From a virus, in the IMG/VR virus record IMGVR_UViG_3300010885_027842, positions 1-34,599 of that record: DNA of 34,599 bases; one strand, given 5' to 3'. A program made the position numbers and the translations under genes. Positions 6,640 to 29,706 of the stretch are shown in pieces. A model generated the notes under the pieces. The model saw only the letters and a list, made by a program, of their open reading frames with translations. It made no database searches and was not told the origin of the DNA. Within the stretch, counting starts at the first letter, position 1. Every line of letters starts with the position of its first letter.

Positions 6640-7226
6640 ATCGCCTCGCGCGCCGTAACGCTGAATTGATGCTTGTCCACCCGCTCAATCATGGTCGGGA
6701 TTGTGCCGGTAGGGCGCAACAGCACGCCGGGATCAACTACGTTAAGCGCAGCATTGGCGGCGGGCGAGTACCGCAGGGCGGGAACGAATTGCAGCGTAGC
6801 GGCCCCGGCAGTCGGTGGCGCGTCTACAATGATCCGATGCAGGCGCAACGCAGCACCCGTGCCAAGACTGAAAAAGTCGCCCGCGCGCAACCCTGTTCCA
6901 GTCCATCCGTATGTGACAAGGGTCGTGCCGGTCTGCCCAGCGCCGTTGACTAGCGGCGTGCCTAGCCCGGTTGGGTTAAGAATCGACGGGTCGCGCAGAA
7001 TAAACGTGTTGACGCCCCCTGCCAGCCAATCCAGAAAGCCCGACATGCGCCGCGCAGAATGGCCCTGCGATTGCGCAAACTCAATGTCATAGGCCCACCA
7101 GCGCCCGCCCCAATCCTGCGGCTGTTGCGTGCCGGTAAATGGCGATGTGGTCGGCCCGACGACAACGGCAGATTGCAGGGTCCGCGTCATCCGGCGCACC
7201 AGAGTCAGGGGTAGTTCAATAGTCAT
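6636..7226 (-). CDS. distal tail-type protein
   Basis: This 196-residue protein sits directly after the tape measure gene, where the distal tail or gpM-like protein is normally encoded. Its N-terminal half has QSAVVVGPTTSPFTGTQQPQDWGGRWWAYDIEF and a helical segment with a conserved-looking FLDWLAGGVNTFILRDPS. The second half repeats strands with LVNGAGQTGTTLVTYGW and LRAGDFFSLG. I know this two-part pattern from many siphophage tail proteins. It should help to nucleate the tail tip. The start at 7226 shares one base with the tape measure stop (TGATG). Confidence 0.65.
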   Translation of the reverse strand: MTIELPLTLVRRMTRTLQSAVVVGPTTSPFTGTQQPQDWGGRWWAYDIEFAQSQGHSARRMSGFLDWLAGGVNTFILRDPSILNPTGLGTPLVNGAGQTGTTLVTYGWTGTGLRAGDFFSLGTGAALRLHRIIVDAPPTAGAATLQFVPALRYSPAANAALNVVDPGVLLRPTGTIPTMIERVDKHQFSVTAREAI

Positions 7227-16887: not shown

Positions 16888-17087
16888 CAGGTGCCCCGCT
16901 CGTAAGACGGGTTCCAGCCCGTCACGCGCGCCGCTGAAACCTCCAAGCCGCGCGCCACGATCCGGCGCGCCCGCAACAATTCGTCAAGCGTGGCGTACTC
17001 CACCCGCTTGCCATCATACATGACAACCTTCGTCCCCGACGCTATGGCCGCGTCCAAGGCGTCAAGCTGTGTCTGCGTATAAGCCAT
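16887..17087 (-). CDS. gpW-like head-tail joiner
   Basis: This 66-residue protein starts MAYTQTQLDALDAAIASG, followed by TKVVMYDGKRVEYATLDELLRARRIV. A helix, a beta hairpin with 'V.YDGKRVEY' and a second helix is the gpW fold pattern. It lies between large terminase and portal, as in lambda. Start 17087 overlaps the terminase stop (TAATG, 17085-17089); an upstream GTG/ATG extension is possible but unsupported. Role: connector adaptor between portal and tail. Confidence 0.75.
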   Translation of the reverse strand: MAYTQTQLDALDAAIASGTKVVMYDGKRVEYATLDELLRARRIVARGLEVSAARVTGWNPSYERGT

Positions 17088-18874
17088 TACAGCCAGTCCC
17101 CCCTTGTCTCGATCCACCCGCCATCCGAAGGCTTTGGCTTTATGATCCGTTGCGGCTCTGCCTGCGACAGATCAAACCGCCTCTGGTTCCAATCCGGGTT
17201 GACCATCTGGCGCACTGCCCACGCATACACAACGCAGTCCAGCGCTTCGGCCCTGCGCCCCGGCAACCGCTCAAACACCCGCTTCGGAACGCCCCGCGAA
17301 TAGCGAACCACAATCCGTTCCGATGCCAGTTGCTCAAACCAGACCGGGGGCAGATCAGACGAAAACCGCATAGCACCCGGTATGGACAGCCGCCGAAACA
17401 ACGCTTCCTTGACCGTATCCACGCCCACGATACACAGCCGGTCCCCGGCCTTCTTCGCATTTGTTGCACGCGCAAACATCGGGCGGTTTCCGTCCGCGCC
17501 TTTGACCGGCACAATGCGCCGCCTGCGCCCGCAGAAATTAACCACACGCTGCATTGTCGCGCCGTCACCAGCGTCTATCGCAACCGCATCGAACCCGATC
17601 TTGCCGCCTAAAGCATGGTCAAACCGGCGCGCGATAAGCGTATCCAATTCGCCCCAAGTTTCGTCATCATCCCACGCGCCCCATATTACCCATTGGGCAA
17701 GAACACATGGTGAACCTTCATCGGCCCATCCTATCGCGGTCGCCTCAATCCGGTCGTGCTGCACATCGCAGCCCAGCGTCAGGGCAAGCACTTCGGCTGG
17801 CACCGGCTCTACTCGGATAGGCTCCGCACGGGCCATAAGTTCCGCGTCCGATACTTCATCACCTTCCCCACGCCAGCCCTGGCCGAGAATGGTATTGATG
17901 AAGGTCTGTAGCGTTGTCGGGTCCGACTTGACCGCAATAAACTCCCGCGCCAACTTCGCCCAGCTTGCGTTTGCATGAAGCGACACAAGCGCATTCAGCC
18001 GAAACCCGGCATGGCTCACAACCTCGGGCCGCAAAGCGCGCCACCGGCCCGCTTCGACCATCGAAGGCTTTGACGATTCCGGGCTGTCCGCACCGCAGGC
18101 GGGGCAACTAAAATGCGCCGTTTCCGGGTCGCCATCTTCCCATCGGATGTGCGCCCATTGTATCTCTGTAAACGTCCCGCAATGCGGACACGGAACCTCA
18201 AATATCCGGCTATCCGATTGCGCATAGCTGCGCAGGACGTGACTGGTATCCTCGTGAACCGGCGTCGAACCAATGACGATCTTGCGATCCGGGAACGACA
18301 TGGTGCGCCGTTCGGCCAGCAAGATAGGCGAACCTTCGGGCGTGTTTTCCATGCCGTCAGCTTCGTCTATAAACAGCACCCGGACGTTGTGCCGCCGCAG
18401 GTTTCGTGGCGACTTGGCCGCGACAACCTTTAGCGATCCACCGGGGAACCGGCGAGACATAAGCGTATTCCGCTCACCCTCTGCCGCATCTTCGCGCAGC
18501 GCGTGCGCCACAACCTCAGTTGCCCCGAATAGCGGCTCCACGTCCGAAACCACATAGTCCCGGCAATCGCTTTCCGTCGGCAACAGGCACAGGATCGGCG
18601 CAGGGTCGTTCGACACATAGGAAGCGACCGCCGATGTCAGCAGCGTGGTAAACCCGACCCGAACCGGCTTTACCATCGTCACCCGTTCTATTTCGGGATC
18701 ACCAATCGCATCCGCAATCTCGCGCTGAAACGGCCAAAGCCTGACCGGCCCCGGCTGCGCAGACATGCCATCCGGCAGTCGAACATGCGCCTCGATCCAT
18801 TCCGACAGCTTTAGCCTTGGTGGCGGGACAAGCGCGCGCCGCGCACGATCCAGCACCATTTCAGGCGTCAGCAT
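17087..18874 (-). CDS. terminase large subunit, lambda gpA family
   Basis: This 595-residue packaging motor belongs to the GpA_ATPase group. It contains LWPFQREIADAIGDPEIERVTMVKPVRVGFTTLL, in which KPVRVGFT stands in the Walker A position as in lambda A, then ILCLLPTESDCRDYVVSDVEP and the Walker B VLFIDEAD. Next comes a zinc-ribbon-like CPHCGTF...CPACG, and then the nuclease domain with LTLGCDVQHDRIE and a later FDAVAIDAG. It cuts concatemeric DNA and pumps it into the head using ATP. Start 18874 follows GGGAG, though with a short spacer; 18859 is an alternative. Confidence 0.9.
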   Translation of the reverse strand: MLTPEMVLDRARRALVPPPRLKLSEWIEAHVRLPDGMSAQPGPVRLWPFQREIADAIGDPEIERVTMVKPVRVGFTTLLTSAVASYVSNDPAPILCLLPTESDCRDYVVSDVEPLFGATEVVAHALREDAAEGERNTLMSRRFPGGSLKVVAAKSPRNLRRHNVRVLFIDEADGMENTPEGSPILLAERRTMSFPDRKIVIGSTPVHEDTSHVLRSYAQSDSRIFEVPCPHCGTFTEIQWAHIRWEDGDPETAHFSCPACGADSPESSKPSMVEAGRWRALRPEVVSHAGFRLNALVSLHANASWAKLAREFIAVKSDPTTLQTFINTILGQGWRGEGDEVSDAELMARAEPIRVEPVPAEVLALTLGCDVQHDRIEATAIGWADEGSPCVLAQWVIWGAWDDDETWGELDTLIARRFDHALGGKIGFDAVAIDAGDGATMQRVVNFCGRRRRIVPVKGADGNRPMFARATNAKKAGDRLCIVGVDTVKEALFRRLSIPGAMRFSSDLPPVWFEQLASERIVVRYSRGVPKRVFERLPGRRAEALDCVVYAWAVRQMVNPDWNQRRFDLSQAEPQRIIKPKPSDGGWIETRGDWL

Positions 18875-19319
18875 CGCTCCCTGCCTCGAATAGCGCAGTC
18901 CGCAATTCCCGGTCCACCGCAAGCGTCTGTACCTGCGTCAGTCCCGCAGCCACCTGCACCCTTGCAGGCAGCGCCAGAAGCCGCGACCGCAAGCCCCGCA
19001 GAAAGTCAGACCAAGTTACTTCCACCTCACCAGCCTGCAACAATTCGCCTCGCAGAATGGCGTTCTTGATTTCCTTTTCGTCCGCCTGCTCTTTTGCCAG
19101 CCGCGCCCGTTCTTTCGTCAGGTCCAACACCTGTTCTTCACCGCCGCGCCCCGATGCAATGCCCCGCATATGCGCGCAGTAGGCCACAACCGTTGCCTTG
19201 ATGTCGTATCCCCGGCCATCACGAATCATAAGGTCTTCGTGCTTGTCCAGCGCCCGAGCGGAAACGCCAAGCCAAGCAGCCATTTCCGTTTTGTTCCCTA
19301 TCAAAACTGTAGGCCCCAT
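18861..19319 (-). CDS. terminase small subunit, Nu1-like
   Basis: This 152-residue protein starts MGPTVLIGNKTEMAAWLGVSARALDKH, a winged helix-turn-helix as in lambda Nu1 that should bind the cos region. A charged helix (LTKERARLAKEQADEKEIKNAIL) follows for dimerisation and a C-terminal part contacts the large subunit. It overlaps the large subunit start by 14 nt. The start is uncertain: 19319 gives the conserved-looking beginning, 19337 is another ATG and neither has a good SD. The cos site is likely near its upstream side but I cannot point to it. Confidence 0.8.
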   Translation of the reverse strand: MGPTVLIGNKTEMAAWLGVSARALDKHEDLMIRDGRGYDIKATVVAYCAHMRGIASGRGGEEQVLDLTKERARLAKEQADEKEIKNAILRGELLQAGEVEVTWSDFLRGLRSRLLALPARVQVAAGLTQVQTLAVDRELRTALFEAGSDADA

Positions 19320-19746: not shown

Positions 19747-20043
19747 ATGATCCATCCGAGCCATATGACGAAAGACGCCTTTGAGGCATCCGCACGCGGC
19801 GACCTTGAAGCTTTGATTGATGCATACTTTGACCAAGAGAAAGTTTGGCGCGCAGCCGCCTCGGCAAAATTCGTCCCATACGAAAAAAGCCAGAACTTTC
19901 GCAGTGTGGGTGCGCATGAGTTTTTTGAGCGCAACCGGCTAGACGCGATCTTCTACGGCATTGCGGGGCTTTTGGGGTGGGACGAAGACCGCGCTAGGCT
20001 TGAGATTGCCACCCGCGAAGCAAGCAAGGGCGACGCCGCATGA
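19747..20043 (+). CDS. 98-residue protein of unknown function, counter-oriented cassette
   Basis: The protein starts MIHPSHMTKDAFEASARGDLEALIDAYFDQEKVW. It is soluble and mostly helical, with aromatic residues clustered in the middle (FVPYEKSQNFRSVGAHEFFERN) and an acidic helix (GWDEDRARLEIATRE). A good SD (GGGAG, 6 nt) and a promoter precede it. It overlaps the next gene by ATGA. Both genes run against every neighbour within 7 kb, the usual sign of an independently expressed accessory (moron-like) unit. I recognise no family. Confidence 0.75.
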   Translation: MIHPSHMTKDAFEASARGDLEALIDAYFDQEKVWRAAASAKFVPYEKSQNFRSVGAHEFFERNRLDAIFYGIAGLLGWDEDRARLEIATREASKGDAA

Positions 20044-20234
20044 CCGACGCCACCCGCAAAAAAGCCGAACGCCAGCGCAAACGTGCGGCTGGCCTCGCGC
20101 CCATCGAGATATGGGCGCATCCGGATCAGCATGACGCGATCCGGCAGTTTGTCCGCGAATTGGTCAGCACCAGGCCAGGAGCGATTGCCTGTGGCCGGGG
20201 CCTATTGTCCGAAGGCGTATGTCCAAGACAGTGA
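20040..20234 (+). CDS. 64-residue basic protein, possible ribbon-helix-helix
   Basis: A Lys/Arg-rich N-terminal tail (MTDATRKKAERQRKRAAG) leads into a strand (LAPIEIWAHP) and a helix (DQHDAIRQFVRELVS). Strand-then-helix after a basic tail recalls ribbon-helix-helix DNA-binding proteins, and similar small phage proteins occur in alphaproteobacteria. It is coupled to the 98-residue gene by ATGA (20040-20043). It might autoregulate the cassette through the palindrome in its promoter, or act as the antitoxin of a pair. Neither is shown. The tail after residue 46 (PGAIACGRGLLSEGVCPRQ) has two Cys. Confidence 0.6.
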   Translation: MTDATRKKAERQRKRAAGLAPIEIWAHPDQHDAIRQFVRELVSTRPGAIACGRGLLSEGVCPRQ

Positions 20235-20311
20235 CGACCCTCGGCGCATGAAGTGAGCGCGCCTATCCGGTGCCTGTACGGGGGAGTGGCGTGTATGAAG
20301 GATGCCGCGCT

Positions 20312-20379
20312 CTGCCATGTCGCGATGCTGGCCAGCTTTCCCCGCCGGATAAGGCCAGCAGGTATTCGCGGCATGGCAG
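20312..20379. repeat. 22-bp imperfect hairpin in non-coding region
   Basis: CTGCCATGTCGCGA plus TGCTGGCC (20312-20333) pairs with GGCCAGCA (20353-20360) and TCGCGGCATGGCAG (20366-20379). The stem has 22 pairs including one G-U (on the plus-sense RNA), one 5-nt bulge (20361-20365) and a 19-nt loop. No T-run follows on either strand, so it does not look like a terminator. It lies just beyond the 3' end of the minus-strand tRNA-like element. Confidence 0.75.
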
Positions 20380-20395
20380 AAAGCAGCGAACGCAG

Positions 20396-20456
20396 TCCCG
20401 ACGGCGGGAATCGAACCCGCAACCGCAATGGCCTCTACCGTTGAAGCTACGCCGGA
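20396..20456 (-). ncRNA. tRNA-like element lacking a normal anticodon arm
   Basis: The minus strand reads as a tRNA with one arm missing. TCCGGCG (20456-20450) pairs over all 7 positions (two G-U) with CGTCGGG (20403-20397), and an unpaired A follows. TA takes positions 8-9. GCTT/AGGC is the D stem, with loop CAACGGTAG holding the conserved GG. GCGGG-TTCGATT-CCCGC (20420-20404) is a textbook T arm. Between the D and T arms there are only 10 nt (CATTGCGGTT) instead of about 23, able to make at most a 2-3 bp mini-hairpin. No CCA is encoded. It is 61 nt long, cannot decode normally, and may be a relic, a mimic or a processing signal. Confidence 0.6.
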
Positions 20457-20463
20457 TCCGCGC

Positions 20464-20543
20464 TCTGTAGATGAAGCCGAGGCAATCCTACGTTCCGTGT
20501 TGGCCCGGGGGTCAGATCACATGTGAAGGGCTTCATCTACGGA
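20464..20543. repeat. 15-bp inverted repeat around a palindrome
   Basis: TCTGTAGATGAAGCC (20464-20478) pairs with GGCTTCATCTACGGA (20529-20543): 12 perfect pairs, one G-T, then two more. The 50-nt interior contains the perfect palindrome TCACATGTGA (20517-20526). On the minus strand this structure lies just before the tRNA-like element and after the NusG-like gene. It may be RNA structure or a protein-binding or recombination site. Confidence 0.7.
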
Positions 20544-20676
20544 AAGCGGCAATATGGCCCCGTAATGACAATCGCATTACCCGTGACGGGATTTTGCGTT
20601 GCCCGGTGGGCCTACGTTGCGCGCGCCTATGTCACGCAGCTAAGGTTACACACCGTTCCGAGACATACCGAATACA

Positions 20677-21222
20677 TTACCGCAACAGATCGGGAACGTC
20701 AACCCGTTCCAGCGATGCCAAGTCTGTTTTGATTGCCCGCCCGTTCAACAGCACCGTCACCACGTTGCCGATGGATTGGACCTCGACAGTATGCCCCGAA
20801 AGCGCGCCTGTCAGGAATCGGGCGGTATCGCCTTCCTTGACGCGCAGCATTTCCAACCGTGCCGCTTCCAATTCCTGCGCCTCAACCGATAGCCCGTGCA
20901 ACCGCTGGATAATCGGGCGCGGGACAGTCACGATACAGCCGTTGCACGTCACAAAGCCGTAAAAGCCCTTGAGCCGTTCCCGCATGTTATCCGCCAGCGG
21001 CACGCGGTCAAACTTGGCGAACACATAGCCGGTGACTTCGGCGCGCTCGACCGTCCATGTTTTGCCGAAGCGGTGACGCTGCACAAGTCGCCCTGGAAAG
21101 AAACTCTCCACGCCCCATTCCTTTAACGCTTCGCGCGTCATAACCTCGCAGTTGCTACGAACCTTGAGCATCAGCCATGTGGGGGCTATGGGAACGTCCA
21201 GGGTGATTGTCTTGTGCATCAT
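20677..21222 (-). CDS. NusG-like transcription factor (NGN-KOW)
   Basis: This 181-residue protein has an N-terminal NGN-type domain (about residues 14-115: WLMLKVRSNCEVMTREALKEWGVESFFP, then AEVTGYVFAKF) and, after a helical linker, a KOW domain (about 128-178: VKEGDTARFLTGALSGHTVEVQSIGN). NusG, RfaH and relatives bind RNA polymerase and change pausing and termination. A phage copy suggests control of phage transcripts. It is the last gene of the leftward early operon and is followed by the structured region. GAGGAG lies 8 nt before the ATG. Specific partners cannot be read from sequence. Confidence 0.8.
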   Translation of the reverse strand: MMHKTITLDVPIAPTWLMLKVRSNCEVMTREALKEWGVESFFPGRLVQRHRFGKTWTVERAEVTGYVFAKFDRVPLADNMRERLKGFYGFVTCNGCIVTVPRPIIQRLHGLSVEAQELEAARLEMLRVKEGDTARFLTGALSGHTVEVQSIGNVVTVLLNGRAIKTDLASLERVDVPDLLR

Positions 21223-28367: not shown

Positions 28368-28855
28368 CTGAATACGCCATTGGAAAAAACCGGCTGACGT
28401 ACAACTCAGAGACAGGACTGTTTACTTGGCCGCGCACAAACCATGTTGCTGGGTCGCTGGCCCGCGATGGATACCGCAAGGTTTGCGTTGATAACAAGAT
28501 TTTCAACGCTCACAAGCTGGCGTGGTGTCTTGTGTATGGGGAAATGCCCACGCAGGCGCTTGACCATATAAATGGCGCTCGCGACGACAACAGGATTGCA
28601 AATCTGCGGCTGGCTACCCCGTCCGAAAATGCACAGAACAAACGGTCATCGCCTGCAGGGAAGCGAACAAAAGCCCCGCTAGGCGTTACCTTTCACAAGA
28701 AGTGCCAAAAATATCAGGCTCAAATCATGGTAGGCGGCTGTTCGCATTACCTCGGCCTTTATGAATCACCGGAAGACGCACACGCCGCCTATTTGGCAGC
28801 AAAGCGCAATCTTCATCCATTTGCCGACCTTACAGCACAAAGGGGAACGCCATGA
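28364..28855 (+). CDS. HNH endonuclease with AP2-like DNA-binding domain
   Basis: The product is 163 residues. The HNH part (about 40-88) reads AHKLAWCLVYGEMPTQALDHINGARDDNRIANLRLATPSENAQNK, with the DH, N and N of the HNH_3 type. It is followed by an AP2-like domain (about 108-150: GVTFHKKCQKYQAQI, YLGLYESPEDAHAAYLAAKR). Free-standing homing endonucleases of phages have this layout. Its start overlaps the 29-residue gene (ATGA), so it is neatly fitted into the operon, unlike a fresh insertion. The longer in-frame start at 28094 would overlap two other genes. Confidence 0.85.
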   Translation: MTEYAIGKNRLTYNSETGLFTWPRTNHVAGSLARDGYRKVCVDNKIFNAHKLAWCLVYGEMPTQALDHINGARDDNRIANLRLATPSENAQNKRSSPAGKRTKAPLGVTFHKKCQKYQAQIMVGGCSHYLGLYESPEDAHAAYLAAKRNLHPFADLTAQRGTP

Positions 28856-29706
28856 GCGCCTATATCCTGCGATCATGTGACAGCAACTTGCAGTCACGCG
28901 GCGGCTTTCAATGGCCCGAAAGCGGCCCCGTAGAGGCCCCGGACTGGAACCCACAACCGGAATGCGGAAATGGCCTGCACGGCTTTCTTTGGGGCAATGG
29001 CAATGGCAGCTTTGCCAATTATGCAGACACTTCCCGCTGGATTGTCGCCAAAGTGGACGAGTGGGTTGATCTTGGCGGCAAGGTGAAGTTTCCCCGCGCG
29101 GATGTCGTATTTGTCGGCCAGCGCAATGAAGCGGCTGCGGAAATTGTCCGCCTTGGCGCGACCGGCGCGGTTATCGGGTATAACGCCACGGCAGGCGAAT
29201 ACGGCACGGCCACGGCAGGCAACGGAGGCACGGCCACGGCAGGCAACAGAGGCACGGCCACGGCAGGCAACGGAGGCACGGCCACGGCAGGCAACGGAGG
29301 CACCATCGTTATTCAGTGGTATGACGGCAATCGCTTTCGTCTTGCCGTTGGCTACACCAATGAGTCCGTTAAACCCAACACGGCATATCGCTGTGAACGC
29401 GGGAAGTTTGTCGAACAAGGCGGTGGCAGCATGACCACAACCGAAACCCACTTCAACATAGGAGGTCCGCACGGCGGCGCATGGTTTGAGGCCAAAATCC
29501 AATACGACTATTATTGGGACGGCGAAAGCGGCGGCGTGTCGGTGTCGTACATGTGGTTCCGGCACCCTGCCGTTAAGGGCAAGCCGGAATTTGAGTGGCA
29601 GGAAAACCCGCTGCTCGAACAACTGCTGGATACCGAAGATTTGCGCCTGTCCCTGCTCGAAGAATACGAGGGCGCGGCGCGGTCCTATGCGGAGGCTGCG
29701 GAATGA
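28852..29706 (+). CDS. DUF7666-like repeat protein fused to a second domain
   Basis: This 284-residue protein has two parts. Residues 1-190 resemble DUF7666: CGNGLHGFLWGNGNG, VVFVGQRNEAAAEIVRLGA, then an octapeptide-repeat stretch and GTIVIQWYDGNRFRLAVGYTN. After KFVEQ comes a GGGS linker and then MTTTETHFNIGG, starting about 92 residues that look like a separate small protein (PEFEWQENPLLEQLLDTEDLRLSLLEEYEG). The Met at 29431 follows an SD-like AAGGCGGTGG, so a shorter product may also be made. Coupled by ATGA to both neighbours. Function unknown. Confidence 0.65.
   Translation: MSAYILRSCDSNLQSRGGFQWPESGPVEAPDWNPQPECGNGLHGFLWGNGNGSFANYADTSRWIVAKVDEWVDLGGKVKFPRADVVFVGQRNEAAAEIVRLGATGAVIGYNATAGEYGTATAGNGGTATAGNRGTATAGNGGTATAGNGGTIVIQWYDGNRFRLAVGYTNESVKPNTAYRCERGKFVEQGGGSMTTTETHFNIGGPHGGAWFEAKIQYDYYWDGESGGVSVSYMWFRHPAVKGKPEFEWQENPLLEQLLDTEDLRLSLLEEYEGAARSYAEAAE
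29203..29298 (+). repeat. 24-base tandem repeat, four copies
   Basis: Four contiguous 24-base units (ggcacggccacggcaggcaa plus cgga, or caga in copy two), encoding Gly-Thr-Ala-Thr-Ala-Gly-Asn-Gly/Arg. A partial unit precedes them. High identity suggests recent slippage, and the in-frame length keeps the protein intact. There are no spacers, so it is not a CRISPR array. Confidence 0.85.

Follow-up and report, generated by a model that had tools for sequence, protein, structure and literature searches.

A tRNA-Like Module without an Anticodon Arm in a Predicted Modular RNA between a NusG-like Gene and the Late Genes of a Virus

Results

Gene Order and Relatives of the Locus

The window, a stretch of 34,599 nucleotides, covers positions 1 to 34,599 of the viral contig IMGVR_UViG_3300010885_027842 (IMG/VR). 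Its minus strand carries, in order, replication genes, a gene for a NusG-like protein, a tRNA-like element, and terminase, portal, and tail genes. The NusG-like antiterminator gene (20677–21222, minus strand; 181 amino acids) matches phrog_6386 (E = 3.6e-15), and its product contains a NusG domain recognized by Pfam PF02357 at 31.1 bits, above the cut-off of 22.2; a comparison of the protein with phage records returned no match. The large terminase subunit, a late gene, is encoded at 17087–18922 (minus strand; phrog_15, E = 2.8e-184), and it lies downstream on the same strand. Between the stop codon of the NusG-like gene and the late side is conserved, apparently non-coding DNA, in which a variable middle separates a 5′ core from a 3′ core.

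Relatives were found via the NusG-like protein and via DNA patterns (L002, L003, L004, L005, L009, L091, L092, and the divergent L094/L095). Immediately after the 3′ core, ARAGORN calls a tRNA-Trp(cca) in seven of them (L002–L005, L009, L091, and L092) and none in the window. The NusG-like gene is directly upstream of the non-coding region in the window, while two small genes separate the two in L095. In the most divergent relative (L094), a different NusG-family gene precedes the region; its product matches phrog_6386 at E = 1.3e-6 and has no match in Pfam, and the best of its PDB matches, which are weak, are to NusG KOW chains.

A possible promoter, TTGACG-N17-TAATGT, was noticed by eye at 20674–20702 on the minus strand, where it overlaps the NusG-like stop codon. 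The motif TTGAC recurs at a comparable distance ahead of the RNA in two relatives with different upstream sequence, L091 and L095. A scan with the sigma70 consensus was empty and did not recover this candidate, which is only suggestive; a consensus scan for intrinsic terminators was likewise empty.

A Predicted Structured RNA Built from Exchangeable Hairpins

The minus strand from 20669 to 20161 is predicted to specify a structured, modular non-coding RNA of about 509 nucleotides, or 519 nucleotides if counted from the NusG-like stop codon. Measured from that codon through the 3′ core, the length ranges from 519 to 1,283 nucleotides among the window, L002, L003, L004, L005, and L009, and the version in L095 measures 383 nucleotides. 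The 5′ core (20550–20669) is near-invariant in the relatives, and the 3′ core (20161–20304) shows 96–98% identity over 154 bp. Sense-strand folds have z-scores of −5.0 in the window and −4.4 to −7.0 in four relatives, with none of 40–60 dinucleotide shuffles reaching an energy as low in any of the five members. The reverse complements of five members also give negative, weaker values (−2.8 to −4.3), and five coding pieces of the window, used as controls, range from −0.9 to +1.4.

Long-range pairing is predicted between the two cores; for the main helices in five members, mean probabilities are mostly 0.7–1.0. For L091 and L095, which differ in the 5′ part, pairing is predicted between GCCUAUC and the 3′-core sequence GAUAGGC, at probabilities of 0.72 and 0.99, respectively; L005 folds differently, with low confidence. 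The variable middle consists of hairpins that open with CYGCUUUC (A) and close with GAGCGCGG (B), in which the positions of mismatches are constant and the stems otherwise differ. Two such modules were assigned in the window from the module table and compensatory change, one at 20458–20549 (A, CCGCUUUC; B, GAGCGCGG) and one at 20305–20386 (CUGCUUUC to GAGCGCGG), both on the minus strand. Modules were catalogued in nine loci. Among relatives they have been exchanged in mosaic fashion, with retention of the cores.

Covariation is strong in these hairpins. In an alignment of 17 distinct modules, 95.8% of cells are paired, and 10 of 18 pairs have been altered on both sides. The double-changed cells number 63, compared to 20.3 in shuffled alignments (0 of 500 as high) and 5–15 when the partner strand was slid; the slid controls carry most weight, because related modules may beat shuffles without any structure. 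Modules had been chosen by their end motifs, and the inner stem that gives the signal was not part of the selection. A U-G wobble pair in the arms is preserved in 16 of the 17 modules.

The family known so far comprises only nine contigs, eight of them closely related. A search of viral contigs with the hairpin-module pattern produced no further members, and no homologues of the RNA were found in isolated phages, plasmids, or bacterial genomes; 39 bacterial matches to GGCACCGGATAGGCGCGC all look like chance. Apart from tRNAs, no Rfam family matched the RNA above its gathering threshold.

The tRNA-Like Element

The element at 20396–20456 lies on the minus strand, which the original prediction had not specified, and reads, from 20456 to 20396, UCCGGCG-UA-GCUUC(AACGGUA)GAGGC-CAUUGCGGUU-GCGGG(UUCGAUU)CCCGC-CGUCGGG-A. 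The features on which the original prediction had been built are all found in the minus-strand sequence: seven of seven acceptor pairs, two of them wobbles (U1-G72 and G5-U68), U8-A9, a D arm with GG and a stem of 5 bp (one pair more than usual), and a consensus T arm, so that all three arms follow the tRNA consensus. All 17 positions of the T arm agree with the consensus of the tmRNA/tRNA T arm in Rfam (E = 8.2e-5 for 651 nucleotides compared with all of Rfam). Confirmed as well is the shortness of the spacer: the 10 nucleotides CAUUGCGGUU replace an anticodon arm and variable loop that normally take about 23. CCA is not encoded at the 3′ end.

ARAGORN does not call the element as a tRNA in the window or in the relatives, and Rfam RF00005 does not match it at the gathering threshold of 29 bits in the window, L002, L003, or L009. 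A search of IMG/VR with the combined D-arm, short-spacer, and T-arm pattern yielded matches nearly all of which lie in tRNA- or tmRNA-derived sequence, which indicates that the element is not a chance arrangement. Judged by sequence, its descent from a tRNA is clear and a cloverleaf fold plausible. The 61-mer alone is not unusually stable (minimum free energy z-score of only −0.8; ViennaRNA), and its exact fold is uncertain, because the isolated molecule energetically prefers a different hairpin that displaces the canonical D arm. The D arm is not favored by folding programs in the larger RNA either.

A Predicted Extension of the Acceptor Stem with Alternative Pairing Partners

Within the larger RNA, the tRNA-like block occupies one slot between a B sequence and a complementary arm, B′, a position filled by other structures in relatives. 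It is highly probable that the block belongs to the structured modular RNA. B (GAGCGCGG; 20465–20458) pairs in eight of eight positions with B′ (CUGCGUUC; 20395–20388, minus strand), the two flanking the acceptor stem and extending it by 8 bp. The B′ arm has the general format CYGCGYUC, and as CUGCGUUC, CUGCGCUC, or CCGCGCUC it allows the 8-bp helix in all seven element-bearing members. This bears on the discriminator A that had been proposed to be unpaired: the A is present, yet instead of marking a free 3′ end it faces another A in a mismatch ahead of the B–B′ helix. In L002 the base has been lost. Since the helix continues the acceptor, the supposedly free discriminator is therefore either a mismatch or absent.

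The seven records that carry the element are about 97% alike in it, amid otherwise shuffled surroundings, and both acceptor strands are present together with the D and T arms. The earlier arguments against random decay and against a half-tRNA attP remnant thus stand. Preservation of acceptor pairing, which had also been put forward, holds completely in the window (7/7) but not throughout the family, as pair 3-70 is a C-U mismatch in three of six distinct sequences; variation at the other paired positions is one-sided and preserves pairing. The compensatory acceptor changes sought among homologues did not materialize: the six distinct sequences, which are too close together, contain no two-sided change, and proof by covariation consequently fails for the element itself, unlike for the hairpins that neighbor it.

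The B–B′ slot is dispensable. L005 is without the block, and L095 has a different insert between B and CCGCGCUC. In constrained folds, states with A–B and B–B′ pairing lie about 0.7–5.3 kcal/mol apart, and the favored state varies by member. These models predict two alternative states, one in which B pairs with A and leaves the tRNA-like ends free, and one in which B pairs with B′ and buries them.

Anticodon-Arm-Less tRNAs in Other Phages

Viral contigs were searched for short-spacer tRNA patterns, and matches were filtered for U8 and acceptor pairing; L015, which has no D arm, was dropped. The search identified 32 distinct armless elements unrelated to the window family, of which 29 have seven of seven acceptor pairs. 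Their acceptor sequences differ widely, their spacers are mostly 11–14 nucleotides long, and a long acceptor extension occurs only in L197. Many are located in phage tRNA clusters and others are isolated. The set was drawn from L010, L013, L016, L043, L056, L057, L066, L069, L074, L135, L141, L143, L146, L150–L152, L157, L158, L161, L163, L173, L184, L188, L191, L193, L195, L197, L200, L201, L204, L205, and L207. By eye, the genes after the element look terminase-like in L151 and L163.

Several elements are kept in diverged surroundings. Those of L143 and L183 are identical (58/58 nucleotides) with an unalignable downstream flank, and those of L163 and L188 agree in 59 of 60 nucleotides with flanks that are barely alignable. 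Named Lactococcus phages (P335, bIL309, TP712, D2950, and others) account for 14 of the 16 phage or prophage records that match with a 61-nucleotide element. The copies in bIL309 and D2950 (positions 1201–1261 of L221 and L222, respectively) are identical, lie in different flanks, and are unannotated; both are downstream of the lysin gene. Here the ten nucleotides ACCGTTCGGT take the place of the anticodon arm and could form a mini-arm of three pairs.

No armless tRNA was found in 780 bacterial genomes from two classes, where the pattern matches are serine-type long variable arms or chance; this is a result on occurrence, not a comparison of rates with phages. Many other viral matches were set aside as tmRNA 3′ ends (L008, L020, L022, L025, L026, L030, and others), which often sit near the end of their contig, a location that ssrA attachment sites would explain. 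A search of largely open-access literature for anticodon-less phage tRNAs returned nothing relevant. The near-identical elements in diverged flanks, the recurrence in phages, and the null result in the 780 bacterial genomes support the view that armless tRNAs are under selection in phages. The window block was probably captured from this class and modified by the extended stem; a resemblance of its acceptor and T arm to the elements of L151, L163, and L188 offers a lead only.

Discussion

Comparison with Known RNAs

In phage lambda, the gene of the antiterminator Q is followed by pR′, the 6S late leader, and the late genes, and some related phages have tRNAs there. The succession of NusG-like gene, leader RNA, tRNA, and late genes resembles such late control by antitermination, except that a NusG-family protein replaces Q and the leader is much longer and structured. 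The NusG paralogue LoaP acts via a leader hairpin (PMC12691694) and shares with the present locus the combination of a NusG-family factor and a structured leader ahead of a long operon; LoaP, however, works with a single small UNCG hairpin and a terminator that depends on NusA (PMC12691694), whereas the consensus scan of the window RNA revealed no terminator-like site.

By kind, the nearest RNAs are GOLLD and ROOL, although neither matches in sequence. GOLLD is a large, ornate phage non-coding RNA that often lies near tRNAs or contains one, at times in a linker, and has a conserved 3′ part and a variable remainder (Nature 2025, PMC12286853). GOLLD is not known to have modular A/B hairpins or a NusG-like neighbor, and no Rfam covariance match links GOLLD to the window RNA or its relatives. 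ROOL is likewise phage-encoded, close to tRNAs, and of similar length (about 660 nucleotides), but again there is no Rfam covariance match here and the architecture differs.

The element itself invites comparison with mascRNA of MALAT1 (RF01684), which is about 61 nucleotides long, has acceptor, D, and T arms and a reduced anticodon arm, and forms the tail of a long non-coding RNA. The window element is similar in length, arms, and location within a non-coding RNA. The two are not homologous, RF01684 does not match the element, and the acceptor ends of mascRNA are free.

A Putative Late-Operon Leader

We consider it fairly likely that the element is a tRNA-derived module without an anticodon arm, housed in a structured, modular RNA that forms a leader, with a NusG-like antiterminator gene ahead of it and the late genes behind. 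This judgment combines great confidence that the block is part of such an RNA with a considerably more guarded view of antitermination: the structure is well supported, and function is inferred. A role of the RNA as an antitermination leader is judged somewhat less likely than not. The NusG-like factor is tied to the RNA by positional association, and a leader worked by this factor is favored because the gene order resembles late control by antitermination, a NusG-family gene is present even in L094, and LoaP provides a precedent.

In such a model, transcription of the minus strand would begin near 20670, near GGUAUGUCUCGG, and the transcript would run through the RNA into the late genes, in relatives by way of tRNA-Trp. 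The NusG-like protein would be recruited to the nascent hairpins and allow polymerase through, in the manner of LoaP at its leader hairpin. The tRNA-like block would serve as a compact, nuclease-resistant piece of the scaffold or as a conditional processing site, given that B has two alternative partners: A, which leaves the ends free, and B′, which buries them.

A broader proposal, which we regard as somewhat doubtful, is that phages carry a widespread class of functional tRNAs cleanly stripped of the anticodon arm, with the other arms retained under selection. The window lineage would have captured one of them as an exchangeable block of new, modular, NusG-associated late-leader RNAs, in which A–B and B–B′ pairing may switch its ends between free and buried.

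Alternative Explanations

The original prediction of a stand-alone tRNA mimic finds support in the wider phage class, but the window block sits within a larger modular RNA, its acceptor embedded in the 8-bp continuation. RNase P, RNase Z, and the CCA-adding enzyme read the acceptor, D, and T arms of a tRNA, all of which the element has. A free-standing mini-tRNA would be excised as the 61-nucleotide element by RNase P and RNase Z, receive CCA, and act as processing punctuation, as a decoy, or as a substrate of anticodon-independent enzymes. Such a reading is in keeping with the 32 unrelated viral elements, most with complete acceptor pairing and nearly all with unextended ends, with the preservation of the L143/L183 and L163/L188 pairs and of the Lactococcus-phage element in diverged flanks, and with the free ends that A–B pairing would give the window element. 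We nonetheless judge it unlikely for the window, where the acceptor can be extended by 8 pairs in every copy (elsewhere a long continuation is seen only in L197), half of the distinct sequences have the C3-U70 mismatch, L002 is without the discriminator base, and CCA is not encoded. Decay of a tRNA, or a tRNA half left by integration, was already disfavored and is very improbable. Phage tRNAs often decay, and a genuine tRNA-Trp is nearby in relatives; such a remnant would hardly retain both acceptor strands and the D and T arms at about 97% identity in seven records whose neighboring modules have been exchanged.

The exchange of modules could also reflect recombination at the level of DNA. A shuffling hairpin array of the REP or MITE type, or one belonging to a site of packaging or recombination, would pair as cruciform DNA, and the repeated arms, the mosaic exchange, the location on the terminase side, and the good folding of the reverse complement are all compatible with it. 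The stronger sense-strand folding in all five members tested, the U-G wobble preserved in 16 of 17 modules, and the flanking NusG-family gene and tRNA-Trp argue for RNA instead and make a DNA element rather improbable. A bacterial Y RNA, which binds Ro60 and has a tRNA-mimicking effector module, would also place a tRNA-like module on an extended stem, as in YrlA and the Deinococcus Y RNAs. There are weak covariance matches to Deinococcus Y RNA (18.8 and 22.2 bits) and to YrlA, the latter spanning the element and its extended stem. With scores far below gathering (80 bits) and no TROVE/Ro60 protein in any of nine possibly fragmentary viral records, in a search that recovered the Deinobacterium control, this identity was rejected as exceedingly improbable. 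A leader RNA worked by the NusG-like factor remains the favored reading.

If right, it would add a new large structured phage RNA, with exchangeable hairpin blocks and a positional tie to a NusG-family antiterminator, and might offer a way into the question of what ornate phage RNAs do. More generally, armless tRNA genes recur across unrelated phages, including unannotated copies in well-known Lactococcus phages, though they are unable to decode; they bring RNase P punctuation, tRNA-targeting defence, and tRNA mimicry within reach of tests on common laboratory phages.

Additional Features of the Region

Two small plus-strand open reading frames oppose the late operon in the window. One (19747–20043) weakly matches an AcrF1-like family (PF20829, E = 0.0079, below the cut-off), and the other (20040–20234), whose end is antisense to the 3′ core of the RNA, is MazE-like (E = 0.013, below the cut-off); a homologue of the latter adjoins the RNA in L095. 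A further plus-strand frame at 28852–29706 encodes a repeated GTATAGN-type peptide motif and has an N-terminal DUF7666 match. Apparent insertion-sequence junctions are found at the end of the NusG-like gene, before the RNA, in L006 (about 6515) and, in reverse complement, in L009 (about 280).

In L003 (7828–8339), and also in L091, the tRNA-Trp is split in its anticodon region by an insert with a second complete tRNA-Trp. The L003 insert also contains a small HNH-like frame (Pfam HNH, E = 0.0056, below the cut-off), and the 3′ half of the first tRNA-Trp resumes beyond it; the insert resembles a homing element equipped with a tRNA of its own. The variable middle of L003 further holds, on the opposite strand at 6739–6801, a tRNA-like sequence with an acceptor (GGAGCTA/TAGCTCC) and a T arm, in which the D and anticodon parts are unrecognizable.
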